Shown piece by piece: positions 242-17,798 of a stretch of DNA of 31,199 nt (position 1 is its first letter; each line of letters opens with the position of its first letter). Made by a program: the position numbers and the translations under genes. Under the pieces are notes generated by a model, which had not been told where the DNA came from, made no database searches, and worked only from the letters and a program-made list of their open reading frames with translations. This DNA comes from a bacterium (GTDB lineage Bacteria > SM23-31 > JAUVVT01), in NCBI GenBank assembly GCA_030616165.1, contig JAUWXV010000013.1:1-31199 (forward strand), given 5' to 3'.

Positions 242-440
242 TATACTGTATCTATCCGAGAAAGTTATTATTAAAATAATGTAAAACAATAAACTGAAAA
301 AATTCGGGTTATCATTCATCATAATAAAAATCAATTTAAAAATAATAATAATTTACTTGATTTTAGTAAGTTAATATAGTAAAATATTATTGAGTTAACG
401 CTCATTTACTAATGTATGATAAACGAATAATTATTAAGTT
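242..440 (+). repeat. 199-bp leader repeat, copy A
   Basis: This copy matches 3447-3645 along its whole length with scattered substitutions and the same total length. Both copies precede a protein gene in the same orientation. Both stop matching 8 nt before a GTT core (GTTAGAC here). A recombination leader such as attI, with an internal promoter, is an inference from this layout. Confidence 0.8.
357..385 (+). promoter_or_regulatory. Promoter-like TTGATT-N17-TAAAAT
   Basis: TTGATT (357-362), a 17-nt spacer and TAAAAT (380-385) lie inside leader copy A. The same pair is kept in copy B as TTGATT-N17-AAATAT (3562-3590). Placement upstream of the GTT core would suit a cassette promoter. No transcription evidence exists here. 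Confidence 0.4.
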
Positions 441-448
441 AATTTTTA

Positions 449-455
449 GTTAGAC
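449..455 (+). other. Integron-core-like site GTTAGAC
   Basis: It matches the GTTRRRY crossover consensus and lies 8 nt after the end of the conserved leader, the same spacing as GTTATAC at 3654. A 7-nt degenerate motif alone is weak; the equal position in the two leaders is the argument. Confidence 0.4.
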
Positions 456-630
456 ATGATTAAATGTTATTTATATACTAATTCACTGTTTTTACGATGA
501 ATTCTTTGAAAAAGATAATATTGAGCCATAATTTCATAACCCAACCTGTTCTGGTATTTCTGCAGAATACACCAAATTACTAGGGCAGTTGGATAAAAAA
601 AATTAATAACAAAAATGGAGGAAACGCGTC

Positions 631-936
631 ATGGCTAAGTACATTGTATTACACACCCTCAAAAAAAGTGCTGAAGAAGTTTCTAAGGCTCTCAACGAAG
701 GAGCGCCTGAGATTGCGCGGGCAATGGCAGCGGGCGAGACTCCCTGTAAGTGTCTAAAAACCTGGAGTCCTTTACCACACGGAAGGACAGACTACGTGTT
801 CTGCCTATGGGAAGCTGACAAACCTGAAGATGTTGAGGCCACTATAAAGGCATTCGGACTTCTTGAGTATTTTACACTCGATTCTATGCAGGTTGATGAG
901 ATCGATTGGGAGCAATTGGCTAAAGCAGGTGGTTAG
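631..936 (+). CDS. Small conserved-hypothetical protein, 101 aa
   Basis: The start is ATG at 631 with a good ribosome binding site (TGGAGGAAA) nine or so bases upstream. The protein is small and soluble with no signal peptide or membrane segment. It looks like a compact alpha/beta fold: a beta-strand start (KYIVLHTL), an amphipathic helix with EEVSKALNEG, then strands around DYVFCLWEADKPEDVEATIKAF. This layout resembles small ferredoxin-like or dimeric-barrel stress proteins (DUF4242/DUF3303-like), but I do not recognise the family with certainty and give no function. It is first after the leader and core site, in the position of a first integron cassette. Its 3' flank is cut 10 nt after the stop by the transposase element, so no attC remains. 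Base composition is richer in GC than the flanking DNA. Confidence 0.8.
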   Translation: MAKYIVLHTLKKSAEEVSKALNEGAPEIARAMAAGETPCKCLKTWSPLPHGRTDYVFCLWEADKPEDVEATIKAFGLLEYFTLDSMQVDEIDWEQLAKAGG

Positions 937-970
937 TCAGAAATTTATTTCGGGGACACAATACTAATTA

Positions 971-1427: not shown

Positions 1428-1434
1428 GTTAGGC
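1428..1434 (+). other. Integron core GTTAGGC, with residual attC arm upstream
   Basis: It is a consensus GTTRRRY box, preceded by GCAGGTC as in the 3' arm of the attC at 24545-24679. The likely remaining arm covers 1391-1434; its partner arm is missing because the transposase element abuts it. It would be the left boundary of the DUF3795 cassette. Confidence 0.55.
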
Positions 1435-1447
1435 TGAAAGGCTAAAA

Positions 1448-1831
1448 ATGAAACAATCACAATATGGTCCGTGCGGTCTTTTCTGTGGAGCTTGTGGTGC
1501 TCAAGACTGCGATGGATGCCAAAGTTCAAATGTGGATGAATATGTTTCAAATTGTAAATTCAGGACGTGCACAAAAGAAAGAAACTTTGATTTTTGTTGT
1601 TTTTGTGAAGACTATCCATGTAAAGAACTGAATGAGTTCATGAATGATAAATGGCCTCACCATTGGACCATGAAGCCTAATCTTGCATTCATTAGGGATC
1701 ACGGAGTTGATGAGTGGCTCAAAACCCAAAAGCAAGAGTGGTCCTGCAAGAGTTGCAGTGCTGAGATAATGTGGTATCAAAAGAAATGCAACTGCGGAAA
1801 GCAACTTGAAGCATGGCAAGTTCCAGCCTAA
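1448..1831 (+). CDS. DUF3795 cysteine-rich zinc-binding-like protein, 127 aa
   Basis: The protein has the Cys spacing of the DUF3795 family: C9, C13, C16, C21 and C24 near the N-terminus (CGLFCGACGAQDCDGCQ), then C36, C41, C50, C51, C53 and C58 (ending EDYPCKEL). An additional C-terminal rubredoxin-like knuckle uses C100, C103, C114 and C116. It probably binds zinc; the family has no settled biochemical role. There is no signal peptide. The gene starts 13 nt after a GTTAGGC core, and its TAA stop lies inside a GCCTAAC box (1826-1832). That is how integron cassettes are usually packed. No good ribosome binding site precedes the ATG, also common in cassettes. Confidence 0.85.
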   Translation: MKQSQYGPCGLFCGACGAQDCDGCQSSNVDEYVSNCKFRTCTKERNFDFCCFCEDYPCKELNEFMNDKWPHHWTMKPNLAFIRDHGVDEWLKTQKQEWSCKSCSAEIMWYQKKCNCGKQLEAWQVPA

Positions 1832-1855
1832 CCAGCGGTTCCTCCTTACCGCCTT
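1826..1855 (+). other. Truncated attC-like site, 5' arm
   Basis: GCCTAAC (consensus RYYYAAC) at 1826-1832 is followed by CAGCGGTT, the exact complement of AACCGCTG in the 3' arm of the 24545-24679 attC. The 3' half is gone: phrase-like repeat and transposon-end sequence begin by about 1850-1880. Confidence 0.5.
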
Positions 1856-3446: not shown

Positions 3447-3645
3447 TATACTATATCTATCCGAGAAAGTTATTATTAAAATAGTGTAAAACAATAAACT
3501 GAAAAAATTCGGTTTATCATTCATTATAATAAAAATCAATTTATAATTGTTAACAATTTACTTGATTTTAAAAAATTAATATAGAAATATTTTATTGAGT
3601 TAACGATCATTTACTAATATATGATAAGTGAATAATTATTAAGTT
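3447..3645 (+). repeat. 199-bp leader repeat, copy B
   Basis: Copy of 242-440 with the same length and orientation, upstream of the protease gene. It contains TTGATT-N17-AAATAT at 3562-3590. Matching stops 8 nt before GTTATAC (3654). Confidence 0.8.
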
Positions 3646-3653
3646 GATCATTG

Positions 3654-3660
3654 GTTATAC
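3654..3660 (+). other. Integron-core-like site GTTATAC, left boundary of protease cassette
   Basis: Identical to the terminal box of the attC at 5251-5257 and positioned after leader copy B as GTTAGAC is after copy A. A cassette cut at G|TT would run from 3654 to 5251, about 1.6 kb, and contain the whole protease gene. Confidence 0.55.
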
Positions 3661-3798
3661 GCTTCTGCATTAAAACAAGTAAAGTCTTATGGATAAGATT
3701 TTAAAGCAATATATATACACAAAAGTTAGCTGAAATGCCGCCAAAAAATAATTATGATTTAAATCAAATCACTAACTAAAATATAGGAGGAACACAAT

Positions 3799-4935
3799 AT
3801 GGCTAAACGTAAAAAAAATGATCGTCCGCTTAGTTTTAGGCAACTGAAACGGCTAAAACCGAAACCACCCAAAGCATCTCCACCTGAATTAATGAATATC
3901 AATCTGGGTTCAATTACCTTACCCGTACTTAATGCGCCAAAAGTTATAAGGGATTGGAGCGGAGAAAATTCCTACCGGCTTGTGGCTGAGGTGTCGGGCG
4001 CTGAACTTGAAAAATTTGGGAATCAGGTTATCAGGACAATTCCATTTGAACGTATTCCAGAGATTAGGTTGAGCAAAAACAATGTAGAGGAATTTGAGAG
4101 AATTACAGTCCTTGAGGGTAACTATCCGTTATATGCCCGAATGAATTACTTACCTGTCATTTCGCAAATTGATTTGGAAATGGAGGAAAGGTTTAGAAAA
4201 ATAAGAAAGAAGGATGACAAACCCACAAATATTTTTGGAGCTGATGACCGTTATATTTATAATGATTCAAGTTTTCCATGGAGGACGGTTGGCCGTGTCT
4301 GGACCGCCAGCGGGGCTTGTGCTGGCTGCACAATTGGTCCTCGCCTTGTATTGACAGCAAGTCATTGCATTAATTGGATAAGTGGAGGAGGAGTAGGTTG
4401 GATAAAATTTTCACCTGCCTATTATAATGGAAATGGACCCTGGGGCGAATATTATGCGACAAGGGTGATTTATTGGAACAGAGCACTGGGAGGATTAAGC
4501 GATTTAGAGACTGCTTTTGATTATGTCGTGCTGGTAATGAATGACTATGTTGGTAATCATGTCGGTTATCCCGGATACAGAACTTATTCAAGTTCGTGGA
4601 ATGGAGATTCTGTATGGCAACATATGGGATACCCCGGGGACTTAACATCAACGCAGCGTCCTGCATTTCAAGGCAACTGTACGATATCTTCTACCTCCTC
4701 AGAAAGCCTCTCCGGACAAACCGGATATGTAATGGGGCACTATAATGACATTACCGGCGGTCATTCTGGTGGTCCGGTATGGGGATGGTGGTCAAGAGAA
4801 GCATGGCCCAGGGTAGTAGGTGTTCAAAGTGCTGAAGCCTCCACGCCTGCCTACGATACATCCGGTGATAATGAATTTGGTGGCGGACCGGCATTGTGTT
4901 CACTTATTTCATGGGCACGGAGTAATTATCCTTAG
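3799..4935 (+). CDS. Trypsin-like (S1 family, glutamyl-endopeptidase-like) serine protease, 378 aa
   Basis: The start is ATG at 3799 with a strong AGGAGGA site. The peptidase domain spans about residues 150-378. The triad reads His189 in LVLTASHC, Asp241 in TAFDYVVLV and Ser323 in TGGHSGGPVW. Cys pairs fit S1 peptidases (C174/C177/C190, C294). The N-terminal 150 residues form a separate region: a Lys/Pro-rich start (MAKRKKNDRP, KPKPPKASPP) followed by a domain that may be a propeptide. No signal peptide is visible, so either it acts inside the cell or the export route is unusual. A bacteriophage- or toxin-linked role cannot be excluded, but nothing here shows it. It lies between a GTTATAC core (3654) and a full attC-like hairpin (5127-5257), so it is probably cassette-borne. 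Protease identity is secure; substrate is unknown. Confidence 0.9.
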   Translation: MAKRKKNDRPLSFRQLKRLKPKPPKASPPELMNINLGSITLPVLNAPKVIRDWSGENSYRLVAEVSGAELEKFGNQVIRTIPFERIPEIRLSKNNVEEFERITVLEGNYPLYARMNYLPVISQIDLEMEERFRKIRKKDDKPTNIFGADDRYIYNDSSFPWRTVGRVWTASGACAGCTIGPRLVLTASHCINWISGGGVGWIKFSPAYYNGNGPWGEYYATRVIYWNRALGGLSDLETAFDYVVLVMNDYVGNHVGYPGYRTYSSSWNGDSVWQHMGYPGDLTSTQRPAFQGNCTISSTSSESLSGQTGYVMGHYNDITGGHSGGPVWGWWSREAWPRVVGVQSAEASTPAYDTSGDNEFGGGPALCSLISWARSNYP

Positions 4936-4968
4936 ACCAATTCAAGGGGTACATCATCTAAAATATTA

Positions 4969-5069
4969 TATGCGATAATGTTGGCTGAAAGAAATGATTT
5001 TAACATTAACAAGCCTAATCAGTAGAAGACACAAGATCGTTAAGTTTTTCTAATCCCCACTATCGCATA
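4969..5069. repeat. Inverted repeat TATGCGATA...TATCGCATA
   Basis: Perfect 9-bp arms at 4969-4977 and 5061-5069, separated by 83 nt, just after the protease gene. It might be a worn second recombination-site hairpin, but no core boxes fit well. Confidence 0.35.
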
Positions 5070-5126
5070 CAATGAGCCTTTAGCCAGTCCGTTAGTGCTT
5101 ATGGTGTAAGTTTATGGTTTTATCGC

Positions 5127-5257
5127 GTATAACTTTCGCTTCAACCTGACGCCGCCAATTTTGGATTGTTTAATAAAGTTAATTGAAAACAAAAACTTAT
5201 GTAGTGTTCAAATAGTTCAGAGGTGGCGTGGCGGCGCAGGTTAAGCGTGCGTTATAC
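5127..5257 (+). other. attC-like integron recombination site, 131 bp
   Basis: The outer boxes are GTATAAC (5127-5133) and GTTATAC (5251-5257), exact complements. Inside, the 5' arm CGCTTCAACCTGACGCCGCC pairs with the 3' arm GGCGGCGCAGGTTAAGCG, leaving single unpaired bases (C in CTTCAACC, A in CTGACGCC) on one strand only. Complementary arms with one-sided extrahelical bases and a long variable centre are the structural marks of attC sites. No integrase gene is in the window. Confidence 0.8.
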
Positions 5258-5589
5258 TTATTTTGGTAAAGTTATAAATAATTATGATTGTGAAATTTAT
5301 CAATTTATTGGCAGTTTTTGAAAAATGTTAAAAACTCGTAAAAAGTTGATAATCTTAATTAAATCAATTCTTTATATAGAATTTTTCTTGTCGGTAGCCT
5401 GTTTATTAAAATCCTCTCTTTCTTAAAGAGAAACAAATCATTAATGCAGTTTTGACCAGAGTATCGCCCGAGGACTCAAATTTTATTCAAATTAATAATT
5501 CTTTACTTGTAAGAATAACAATATCTTAACAATGCCTTTCCAATTCTTTCCACTTTTTAAGCAAAATTTATCTTTTTGACAAAATAAAA

Positions 5590-12585: not shown

Positions 12586-13836
12586 ATGATTTTAGAAAAA
12601 TATTCTATTGGAATCGGTGACAGATTTGCGCATCAAGGCAAAGCACAACTTGATGCATTAATTAAGGCAAAAGCACAGGGTGTTTTTATTGTTCCTGTCT
12701 GGAATAAATCTTACAGAGAGCACACTATAATAAAATCCGTTCCTGCAGATACTCGTAATGAGGCTGACGAAGCTGTGAATGCAGTCGGTTGGAAAGATGC
12801 ATATTACGTGGACGCCGATCACATTGGGCTTAAAAACGTTGGCGATTTCATGGAATCAAGCGATTTCTTTACCCTCGATGTTGCTGATTTTATCTCAGAA
12901 ATTTCAGAAGAACGAGAATTACATGAATTTATCAAAAAACAGGTTAAATATGTCGGGATATTTGATATACCCGGAATTGATGAATCCTTTCAGATAACAG
13001 TTGAAATGGTCGAAAAGACCGCACGTAAATTTTTGTATGCCATAAAAGAAGCTGGTAAAATTTATAGACACATTGAAAGCGTAAAAGGAAAGGACGCATT
13101 CGTAACCGAGGTGTCTGTTGATGAATCTAATGAGCCCCAGACACCAGTTGAACTTTTCTTTATCCTGTCTGCTGTCGCAGAAGAAGGAATTCCTGCACAA
13201 ACGATAGCCCCTAAGTTCACTGGCAGATTTAATAAAGGTGTTGATTATGTCGGCGATTTGCAGCAATTTACCAAGGAATTTGAAGAAGATATTGCCATAA
13301 TCAATTTTGCCATAAAAGAATTTTCACTTCCGGCGAACCTGAAATTGAGTATTCATTCTGGCAGTGATAAGTTTTCAATTTATCCTCCCATCAGAAAAGC
13401 GCTGCAAAAATTTGATACCGGTCTACATCTTAAAACTGCAGGTACGACATGGCTTGAAGAGTTGATTGGTCTTGCTATGGCAGGCGGCGACGGTCTGGAC
13501 ATTGTAAAAGAGGTTTATAAAAAAGCTTACTTCAGGTTTGAGGAACTCTGCAAACCATATGCCGCAGTAATCGATATTAATAAAGATAGACTTCCCTCTC
13601 CCGAAGCCGTTGGCAGGTGGGACGAAGGGACATACGCTTCTACATTAAGGCATGACCAAAAATGTGAATTGTATAATTCTAATTTCCGTCAGCTCCTGCA
13701 CATCGGATACAAAATTGCCGCTGAAATGGTCAACCGTTATCTTGATGGATTAGTAAAACATGAAAAGGTGATTGCACAAAATGTAACTGAAAACATTTAC
13801 GAAAGACATTTAAAACCAATATTTATCGGGGAATGA
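12586..13836 (+). CDS. uxaE: Tagaturonate epimerase, 416 aa
   Basis: This is a full-length member of the UxaE family, which in Thermotoga converts D-tagaturonate to D-fructuronate and so joins galacturonate to the glucuronate route. Recognised from the N-terminus YSIGIGDRFAHQGKAQLDAL, the KFTGRFNKGVDYVGDL segment and the sugar-binding-like LKLSIHSGSDKFSIYPPI, followed by GLHLKTAGTTWLEELIGLA and the RHDQKCELYNSNFRQLLH tail. It has no signal peptide, so it acts in the cytoplasm, unlike the exported glycan enzymes around it. ATG at 12586 is preceded by AAAAGGAG. A terminator lies at 13878. A degenerate second copy of its last 69 codons is at 17484-17693. Partner genes such as uxaC and uxuB are not in the window. 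Confidence 0.9.
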   Translation: MILEKYSIGIGDRFAHQGKAQLDALIKAKAQGVFIVPVWNKSYREHTIIKSVPADTRNEADEAVNAVGWKDAYYVDADHIGLKNVGDFMESSDFFTLDVADFISEISEERELHEFIKKQVKYVGIFDIPGIDESFQITVEMVEKTARKFLYAIKEAGKIYRHIESVKGKDAFVTEVSVDESNEPQTPVELFFILSAVAEEGIPAQTIAPKFTGRFNKGVDYVGDLQQFTKEFEEDIAIINFAIKEFSLPANLKLSIHSGSDKFSIYPPIRKALQKFDTGLHLKTAGTTWLEELIGLAMAGGDGLDIVKEVYKKAYFRFEELCKPYAAVIDINKDRLPSPEAVGRWDEGTYASTLRHDQKCELYNSNFRQLLHIGYKIAAEMVNRYLDGLVKHEKVIAQNVTENIYERHLKPIFIGE

Positions 13837-14144: not shown

Positions 14145-15595
14145 ATGAAAAGACGAGATTTTTTACGCATGACGACATACGGAGTGATGGCATCAGCATT
14201 GCCACTTATTTCTTGTGATGCCAATAAAAAACTAAAGAGTAAACAGCCCAATATCATTTTCATTATGGCTGATGATCTTGGCTATAGTCATCTCGGCTGC
14301 TATGGTCAGAAAAAAATCCGCACACCGAATTTAGACCAGTTTTCGTCTGAGGGTATGCGTTTCACTCAATGCTACGCGGGCTCACCGGTCTGTGCCCCTT
14401 CCCGGAGTGTATTAATGACCGGGATGCACTGTGGGCACACGTCTGTGCGGGGAAACAGCGGTGGGATTCCAATACTCCCTGAGGATGTGACCATCGGTGA
14501 GGTCCTGAAACAAGGGGGCTATACAACGGGAATCTTCGGTAAATGGGGCCTTGGGGATACTGGAACGACCGGAGTACCCAACAAGCAAGGCTTTGATGAG
14601 TTTTTCGGCTACCTGCACCAGGTCCATTGCCACTTCTATTACCCCTACTATCTATGGGAAAACGATAAAAAGTATCTTCTGCCGGGCAATGAGGGGGGCA
14701 AAAGGCAGCAGTATACGCATGACATATAGTCGATAAAGCTTTAAACTTTATACGTTCCAACAAGAACGGACCGTTTTTTTTGTATTTGCCCTTTACGATT
14801 CCACACACAGAACTGCTGGTTCCTGAGGATTCGTTCCGTGAATACGAAGGCAAGTTTCCAGAACCAAATCCCTATGTAGACAGCCGTGGGCACTACGCTG
14901 ACCAGCCCGCTCCCCGAACGACATTTGCTGCGATGGTTACCCGGATGGACAGGGATATTGGACGGATTATGGCTTTACTTAAGGAACTCAAAATTGATGA
15001 TGACACAATTGTATTCTTTACCAGCGATAACGGCGGACAGATGAGTGGAGGTCCAGATTTGGAGTTCTTTCAGGGCAACAGGGAGCTCCGTGCAGGCAAA
15101 GGTCAGTTGTACGAAGGGGGAATTCGTGTGCCGATGATGGTGCGCTGGCCGGGCAAAATAGGTGCAGGACTGGTAAACGACCACGTGTGGGCGTTTTGGG
15201 ATGTAACGCCGACGCTTTCTGAGCTCGGTGGAGTTAAAATTTCTCATTCCATTGATGGTATTTCGGTAGTCCCCACATTACTCGGACAGGAAAAAGTGGG
15301 TCATCGACAGCAAAAACATAAGTTTCTTTATTGGGAACATCCACGAGGAAAAGATATGATGCAAGCAGTTCGGATGGACGATTGGAAGGCAGTCCTACTT
15401 AAGGGTGATGGGCAACTTGAGCTATACAATCTCAAATACGACATCGGTGAGTATAATAATGTGGCAGCAGCAAATCCCGAAATAATCAATGAAATTGAAG
15501 TCTATTTGAAAACTGCGCGAACTGAACCACGTAAGTACAAACCTCAGCCGCGGACAGCTGGCTCAAAGCGGGAAGAGACGGGATATATTCGCTAA
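14145..15595 (+). pseudogene. Arylsulfatase-family (S1) sulfatase, frameshifted
   Basis: Two frames give one sulfatase. Residues 1-192 run from 14145; the frame ends at a TAG at 14727, and the protein continues one frame over from 14729 (VDKALNFIRSNKNGPFFLYLP) to 15595. One missing base near 14727 explains it. The N-terminus [20 protein letters not shown] is a twin-arginine signal, and LISC24 is a lipobox-like end, so the ancestral protein was a folded, Tat-exported lipoprotein. Metal ligands D43 and D44 ([11 protein letters not shown]) and the CAPSR motif with Cys83, the residue matured to formylglycine, are intact. The second half keeps FFTSDNGG, ELRAGKGQLYEGGIRVPMMVRWPG and LYNLKYDIGE. All motifs being intact suggests a recent mutation or a sequencing error. 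It removes sulfate esters from glycans. Confidence 0.88.
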
Positions 15596-15802: not shown

Positions 15803-17467
15803 ATGATTAAGACGAAATATTGCAGTATAATATGGTTTTTATGCCTCTTTATGACAACTTTTTTATACTGCGAAAAGAATGGCAATGCTGTTCCGAATGG
15901 TGTATCAGACATCTCCTATGATGTTGTTGTTTATGGTGGAACATCCGGCGGCGTGGTTGCGGCAGTTAAAGTCGCCCGTATGGGCAAGTCCGTCGTATTG
16001 ATCGAGCCAGGCAAACACCTGGGTGGCCTAAGCAGCGGCGGTCTGGGTGCCACCGACATCGGCAACAAAGCGGCAATTGGGGGAATATCCCGCGAATTTT
16101 ATCAACGTATTCGTAAACACTATTCGAAAGACTCAGCATGGCGGCAGGAAAAACGTAGTGAGTTCCAGGGAAGGGGACATACTGAAGGAGAAGATGCCGC
16201 ATGGACTTTTGAGCCGCATGTTGCTGAGAAGGTCTTTAATGACATGATTCTTGAAGCTAAGGTTAAAGTTGTATATAGGGAGCGGCTCGACCTCAAGAAG
16301 GGTGTGAAGAAAAATGGGACGGGCATAACAGAAATAGTGATGGAATCAGGGCGGAAATTCCGTGGGAAAATGTTTATTGACGCCACCTATGAAGGTGATT
16401 TGATGGCTAAGGCGGGTGTGTCCTACACTTTTGGTCGCGAGGCTAACTCAAAGTACAATGAAACTCTCAGCGGTGTGCAGGTCAAACATTCTACACATCA
16501 TCAATTCATAAAACCTGTTGATGGATATATCATCCCAGGCGACCGTTCTAGTGGTTTGCTTCCCGGCATCAATTCTTCAATTGAAAAAGACGGCACCGGG
16601 GATAAGCGGATACAGGCATACTGTTTTCGTCTCTGTGCTACCGATGTACCTGAAAATCGTGTTCCATGGCCCAAACCGAGAAATTACAGTCCGATGCGAT
16701 ATGAACTTCTGTTGCGTAACTTTGAGGCAGGCGACCACCGCATTCCATGGAATCCGGTCATGATGCCAAACCGAAAAACCGACTCAAACAACAACTTCGC
16801 TTTCTCCACCGACAACATCGGTATGAACTATGACTATCCCGATGGCGACTACGAAACTCGCCGCCTTATTATCCAGGAACATGAGGACTATCAGAAAGGG
16901 CTAATGTGGACGCTTGCTAATCATCAGCGTGTGCCGCAGAAGATCCGAGAGTATTTTCAGAGGTGGGGGTTGTCCAAAGATGAATTTGTTGATAACGACA
17001 ACTGGCCGCATCAGCTTTATGTGCGGGAAGCCCGTCGTATGGTCAGTGATTATGTCATGACACAGCATAACTGTCAGGGACGAGTGGTGGCTGAAGATCC
17101 AATAGGACTTGCCGCCTACACAATGGATTCGCACAACATACAGCGCTACGTTGATGAGAATGGTTATGTCCGTAATGAGGGTGACGTGCAGGTTGGCGGT
17201 TTTCCGCCATACCCCATATCTTACCGTTCAATCGTGCCCAAAGAGTCCGAGTGTACTAACCTTTTCGTACCAATGTGCCCGTCATCTTCTCACATGGCTT
17301 TTGGCTCAATTCGTATGGAGCCAGTATTTATGGTGTTTGCTCAATCATCAGCGACGGCCGCCATGCAGGCTATTGAAGAAGGTGTGGCAGTACAAAAGAT
17401 CGACTATCTAAAGTTGTCTCAGCGCCTGTTGGCTGACAAACAGGTTCTCAGTTGGCTAACACGTTAA
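15803..17467 (+). CDS. FAD-dependent oxidoreductase (FAD_oxidored family), 554 aa
   Basis: The start at 15803 has an AAGGAGAAAG site. The N-terminus is hydrophobic with FLYC23 at its end, possibly an imperfect lipobox, so the enzyme may be exported. The Rossmann FAD-binding motif VVVYGGTSGGVVAA (41-54) is followed by LIEPGKHLGGLSSGGLG (66-82) with Glu67 or Glu68 as ribose ligand. Later conserved parts include FIDATYEGDLMAKAGVSYTFGRE and, near the C-terminus, YPISYRSIVPK, FVPMCPSSSHMAFGSIRMEPVFM. Members of this family occur in glycan-utilisation loci of FCB and planctomycete bacteria, where their substrate is usually unknown. It follows the sulfatase by 207 bp in the same direction and is probably part of the same glycan module. 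Confidence 0.88.
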   Translation: MIKTKYCSIIWFLCLFMTTFLYCEKNGNAVPNGVSDISYDVVVYGGTSGGVVAAVKVARMGKSVVLIEPGKHLGGLSSGGLGATDIGNKAAIGGISREFYQRIRKHYSKDSAWRQEKRSEFQGRGHTEGEDAAWTFEPHVAEKVFNDMILEAKVKVVYRERLDLKKGVKKNGTGITEIVMESGRKFRGKMFIDATYEGDLMAKAGVSYTFGREANSKYNETLSGVQVKHSTHHQFIKPVDGYIIPGDRSSGLLPGINSSIEKDGTGDKRIQAYCFRLCATDVPENRVPWPKPRNYSPMRYELLLRNFEAGDHRIPWNPVMMPNRKTDSNNNFAFSTDNIGMNYDYPDGDYETRRLIIQEHEDYQKGLMWTLANHQRVPQKIREYFQRWGLSKDEFVDNDNWPHQLYVREARRMVSDYVMTQHNCQGRVVAEDPIGLAAYTMDSHNIQRYVDENGYVRNEGDVQVGGFPPYPISYRSIVPKESECTNLFVPMCPSSSHMAFGSIRMEPVFMVFAQSSATAAMQAIEEGVAVQKIDYLKLSQRLLADKQVLSWLTR

Positions 17468-17798
17468 CATGTGGGAGAGATAGACATACTATTCTACATT
17501 AAGGCATGATAAAAAATGTGAATTTTATAATTCTAATTTCTATCAGTTTCTTCATAATAGATACAAAATTGCAGATGAAATGAGTAACCGTTAAGTTGAT
17601 GCATTAGTAAAGCATGAAAGGATAATCAGGCAAAATGCAGCTGAAAATGCATACGAGAAACATTTAAACCAATATTTACAAAAATTTAGTTAGGGTTTAA
17701 TGAGTGAGCCTATGACGATTTGTAGAAAAAGAGAATTTCAGCGGCTTGGGATTGCACATTAATGGTGTAGATTGCCTATAAAAAAGAAGGAGGAAAGC
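17468..17798. other. Intergenic region, oxidoreductase / GH2
   Basis: 331 bp. Most of it is the uxaE 3'-end remnant (17484-17693). The rest contains the AAGAAGGAGGAAAGC ribosome binding site of the GH2 gene. Confidence 0.7.
17484..17693 (+). pseudogene. Degenerate copy of the 3' end of uxaE
   Basis: The sequence reads S-T-L-R-H-D-K-K-C-E-F-Y-N-S-N-F in the frame from 17484, matching STLRHDQKCELYNSNF of the intact uxaE (13630 onward). Homology at DNA level, clearly above 70% by eye, extends over nearly 200 bp. An in-frame TAA at 17592-17594 and a one-base deletion near 17670 make it non-functional. Only the last 69 codons exist; no upstream part is found before it. Confidence 0.85.

Follow-up and report, generated by a model that had tools for sequence, protein, structure and literature searches.

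The gene at 3799–4935 lies between two copies of the heptamer GTTATAC, the second of which closes a large hairpin, and the locus thereby raises the questions of whether the gene is an integron cassette and, if so, what kind of site the cassette occupies. We analysed the window (the whole stretch of 31,199 nucleotides, which lies on a contig, called C24, of a 343-contig draft assembly) together with the rest of the source genome and its relatives. Judged from sequence features, it is as good as certain that a true integron gene cassette carries the protease gene as its cargo. Moreover, both flanks of the cassette are halves of an element repeated across the genome, which had escaped the original prediction. 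We refer to the left half, ~105 bp directly left of the protease cassette and ending at G/TT, as D1 and to the right half as 'after'. The features of the window to which the text refers, all on the + strand, are:

332..455 (+): D1 copy a, ending in GTTAGAC at 449; 85.8 bits with profile R3
450..943 (+): cassette 1, with a 101-aa ORF (631–936) and without an attC; cut by a RAYT-like element
1428..1834 (+): probable cassette 2, comprising GTTAGGC, a DUF3795 gene (1448–1831; Pfam) and GCCTAAC as R''
3538..3660 (+): D1 copy b, promoter-like and putatively attI-like; 72 bits with profile R3, G/TT point at 3654/3655
3655..5251 (+): complete gene cassette of 1597 bp, with G/TT boundaries at 3654 and 5251
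3799..4935 (+): trypsin-like serine protease gene, 378 aa, with the motif triad H189/D241/S323
5127..5257 (+): attC, from R'' GTATAAC to R' GTTATAC, identified by fold, shuffle null and model R2
5251..5480 (+): 'after', right half of the docking element, repeated on contigs C208, C128 and C233

Probable cassette 2 was read by eye, without model support, and the right half of its attC is absent. The RAYT/IS200-like element that interrupts cassette 1 (944–1391) has inverted ends (arms 944–972 and 1363–1391) and a Y1 transposase ORF broken by an in-frame stop. Upstream of both D1 copies of the window stands a repeat (1–99 and 2803–2901, 99% identical) that may have originated in a duplication of the locus, and further dispersed intergenic repeats occur in this AT-rich, repeat-filled region. 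Elsewhere in the window, a 207-nt direct repeat (13608–13814 and 17462–17668, 78% identical) is located at the ends of two genes, and a sulfatase is divided between two ORFs (14145–14729 and 14780–15595), probably because the gene is broken or the sequence contains an error.

For the hairpin at 5127–5257, complementary outer boxes, paired arms and one-sided extrahelical bases had been claimed, and all were recovered: GTATAAC lies at 5127 and GTTATAC at 5251, with the other GTTATAC at 3654, and the bottom strand, expected to be the recombining one, folds into a 7-bp R box, a 3-nt spacer, 5 bp, an extrahelical G, 6 bp, an extrahelical T, 8 bp and a long variable loop. The site thus has the paired R boxes and one-sided extrahelical bases of an attC, and its bulge pattern is that recovered in reference attC sites. 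Its folding z-score was −5.4, with none of 200 shuffles folding equally well; among 400 dinucleotide-shuffled windows, none gave a hairpin matching its score and none had both an R-box match of at least 6 and the canonical spacing of one-sided bulges. For the covariance-model search by which the prediction was to be checked, 79 loci with class-1-type integrases were fetched and attC sites extracted from them, and models were built from 22 reference sites at known intI loci, with no sequence of the source genome included, either with trimmed loops (R1) or with some full-length loops (R2). With filters off, R2 matched exactly 5127–5257 on the + strand over model positions 1–59, that is, the whole model (20.6 bits, E 0.0021 for 8 kb). 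R1 gave no match to this 131-bp attC and R2 lost it under default filters, probably because its loop is long; an Rfam scan of the window gave no match.

With a G/TT boundary, a gene, a canonical attC and a second G/TT boundary all present, the claim of a complete integron cassette holds, and the measured 1597 bp agrees with the ~1.6 kb originally given. The cassette left end, TTATAC, is exactly that predicted for a circular form from the reverse complement of its own R'' GTATAAC. The protease ORF was found where it had been placed (3799–4935, 378 aa), with AGGAGG preceding its ATG, and the motifs TASHC, DYVVL and GHSGG supply His, Asp and Ser in trypsin order (H189/D241/S323), in line with the trypsin-like assignment. 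Pfam Trypsin_2 matched the protein with E 1.1e-4 and 23.4 bits, below the gathering cut-off of 27.6, and its solved relatives are distant (e.g. 7uxg_A and 1p3c_A). No relatives were found in the other five genomes of the phylum searched or in the viral contigs searched, and the plasmid-collection search yielded one distant match, 26% identical. The cassette shares with integron gene cassettes its G/TT boundaries, single gene and attC with R and L boxes and one-sided extrahelical bases, but differs in its length of 1.6 kb, its trypsin-like protease cargo and its AT-rich 131-bp attC.

As to where the cassette sits, at least 22 copies of D1 occur on 16 contigs of the source genome at E ≤ 1.2e-5, a lower bound from 150 scored candidates. 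In an alignment of 22 sites (19 from the source genome and three from relatives), mean pairwise identity was 0.51–0.74 over the last 60 bases and the GTTRRRY core, with the 20 bases preceding GTT the most conserved stretch, and identity between copies was ~0.30, the background level, directly after GTTRRRY. As in an attI, conserved sequence runs up to a GTT insertion point (GTT stands at the junction in most copies; several deviate) with cassettes downstream, an ORF usually starting 10–180 nt after D1 and differing in nearly every copy. No intI adjoins D1, and many copies lack a recognisable attC downstream. We call D1 promoter-like solely for its conservation, since a simple promoter scan was not above shuffles and did not flag the conserved hexamers. 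D1 as a folded attC was rejected, there being no conserved structure, and a search for D1 in plasmids found none.

A second repeat, 'after', follows the attC on its right, with copies in the window and on C208, C128 and C233. All four have as their exact starting point the GTT in the R' of an attC or attC-like site (those at C208 and C128 recognised by eye and unscored by the models), similarity between them being at background before GTT and 0.67 after it. On C24, C208 and C233 a single strand carries, in this order, D1, the cassette(s), an attC or attC-like site and 'after'; no empty D1–'after' site was seen. Since identity breaks at GTT in D1 and in 'after' alike, the cassette lies between two halves of one element, and the protease cassette appears to have been inserted at the very base at which integrase cleavage would be expected. 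At its junction with D1 each cassette contributes six bases, and these agree with the reverse complement of its own R'' at 6/6 positions in C24, C233 and C208 and at 4/6 in C204 and C92, although a permutation test of this end-match (5 of 120) is suggestive only and too small to carry weight.

Other cassettes are present in the genome. R1- and R2-type models found further attCs, several of them weak, on C233 (three), C204, C172, C92 and C311 (two), and of the six contigs on which a model scored an attC, five also have D1 (hypergeometric P 7e-7). Cassette 1 recurs on C233, 93% identical, behind another D1 and there with an attC; the D1s ahead of its two copies are only ~74% identical, with the identity switch at GTT, which points to the cassette moving as a unit. 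Genes behind other D1 copies encode TIR, pentapeptide-repeat and B12 radical-SAM proteins and many unknowns. On C204 a TIR-domain gene, possibly defence cargo, fills the cassette between D1 and attC (L149, 8331–9419), ending 4 bp before the attC. Defence-system models gave a marginal LmuA match only. Directly behind a D1 on C208 (L040, 394–2199), a B12-binding radical-SAM protein is followed by a 114–127 aa ORF, which together could form a peptide-modification pair. A 782-aa subtilase-family gene upstream of two attCs on C233 (L039, 8901–11249) is a candidate second protease among the cassette genes.

The search for an integron integrase, proposed along with the original prediction, found none above the TIGR02249 cut-off in the source genome and five others of this small phylum, although absence is not proved by these assemblies, which are fragmented and 63–90% complete. 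An intI next to an attI, as in a complete integron, was likewise found in neither the source draft nor the five other genomes. The best TIGR02249 matches were XerC/D-like, and candidate integrase remnants on C22, C53, C31, C94 and C260 were rejected as truncated, degenerate or generic recombinases rather than IntI; one D1 copy on C260 has such a degenerate fragment ~0.5 kb away. The relative G005, from another genus of the class, has strong D1 and attC matches with eight attC candidates; in G001 and G004, of the same class, neither attC nor D1 was found at a strong score.

The protease cassette thus probably occupies one of many docking elements, making up a dispersed, integrase-less integron with attI-like D1s. 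Each docking element would consist of the promoter-like D1, ending in G/TT, as left half and 'after' as right half. An integron integrase would once have joined the bottom-strand attC of the circular cassette to the G/TT of D1, which, as the repeated, base-precise junctions suggest, would act as attI, its promoter driving the captured gene. As no integrase is detectable, the arrays may be static, or an enzyme encoded on an unassembled contig or supplied by another cell may move them in trans. It is an even call whether this amounts to a distributed integron of dozens of promoter-plus-attI elements, each expressing one or a few cassettes as first gene, with an integrase serving in trans from elsewhere or since lost.

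A less likely, though still credible, explanation is a degraded chromosomal integron, whose cassettes would be leftovers (a CALIN or lone attC) and whose D1 would be a promoter-bearing miniature repeat without a recombination role. The missing integrase, the many D1 copies without attC, and the region's repeats, RAYT-like remnants among them, would all fit, but the homology of D1 and 'after' breaks at G/TT with the cassettes exactly between, and one cassette stands behind two divergent D1s. CALINs, which are attC clusters without an integron integrase (PMC9024848, PMC12444791), share with this genome attC sites and cassettes without intI. They have not been described with a D1-like element, whereas here a locus mostly has one to three attCs, with a conserved attI-like D1 ahead of each; and of the at least two attCs within 4 kb that, without intI, delimit a CALIN, the protease locus has one scored, such pairs occurring at other loci such as C233 and C311. 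It is improbable that IntI inserted the cassettes at a non-classical attG, D1–'after' being an unrelated repeat with a usable GTT, the cassettes secondary and D1 no attI. Genomic attG insertion is an established activity (PMC12901181, PMC12444791) for which the integrase could come from outside; such insertions, however, are described as widely spread, whereas here one conserved element was used repeatedly, at one base, and is most conserved in the 20 bases before GTT. That the hairpin is a chance palindrome, a terminator or a REP-like structure and no attC is very improbable: the AT-rich, repeat-filled setting and its omission by R1 and default filters are outweighed by the shuffle null, the match to the independent model R2 with filters off, and the repeats that meet the site at both boundaries.

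Set beside known systems, the dispersed, attI-like D1s resemble the attI with Pc of a classical integron in having promoter-like sequence before a G/TT point and cassettes downstream, but exist in at least 22 dispersed copies without an adjacent integrase; known integrons typically have one attI adjoining intI (PMC9024848, PMC3607928, PMC9668308). Among published ideas, those that come closest are CALINs, attG insertions and delta-attI cassettes (PMC12444791, PMC12901181). In mobile integrons, delta-attI replaces the attC downstream of a gene (PMC12901181, PMC12444791); delta-attI cassettes and attG resemble our case in that recombination sites, attI-derived or non-classical, lie outside their usual position, but attG sites, unlike D1, are not one conserved repeated element (PMC12901181, PMC12444791). 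Our literature search on many or dispersed attI sites found nothing relevant, its limited coverage making this absence no proof.

A protease is an unusual integron cargo, and the way in which it appears to be housed bears on how cassettes are captured and expressed. In the current understanding, an integron has one point of capture, located beside the integrase, and good expression is confined to the first cassettes. If a genome did contain many capture points with promoters, many cassettes could be first simultaneously, and it would have to be asked how attI-like sites multiply and by what means cassettes move when no integrase is resident.
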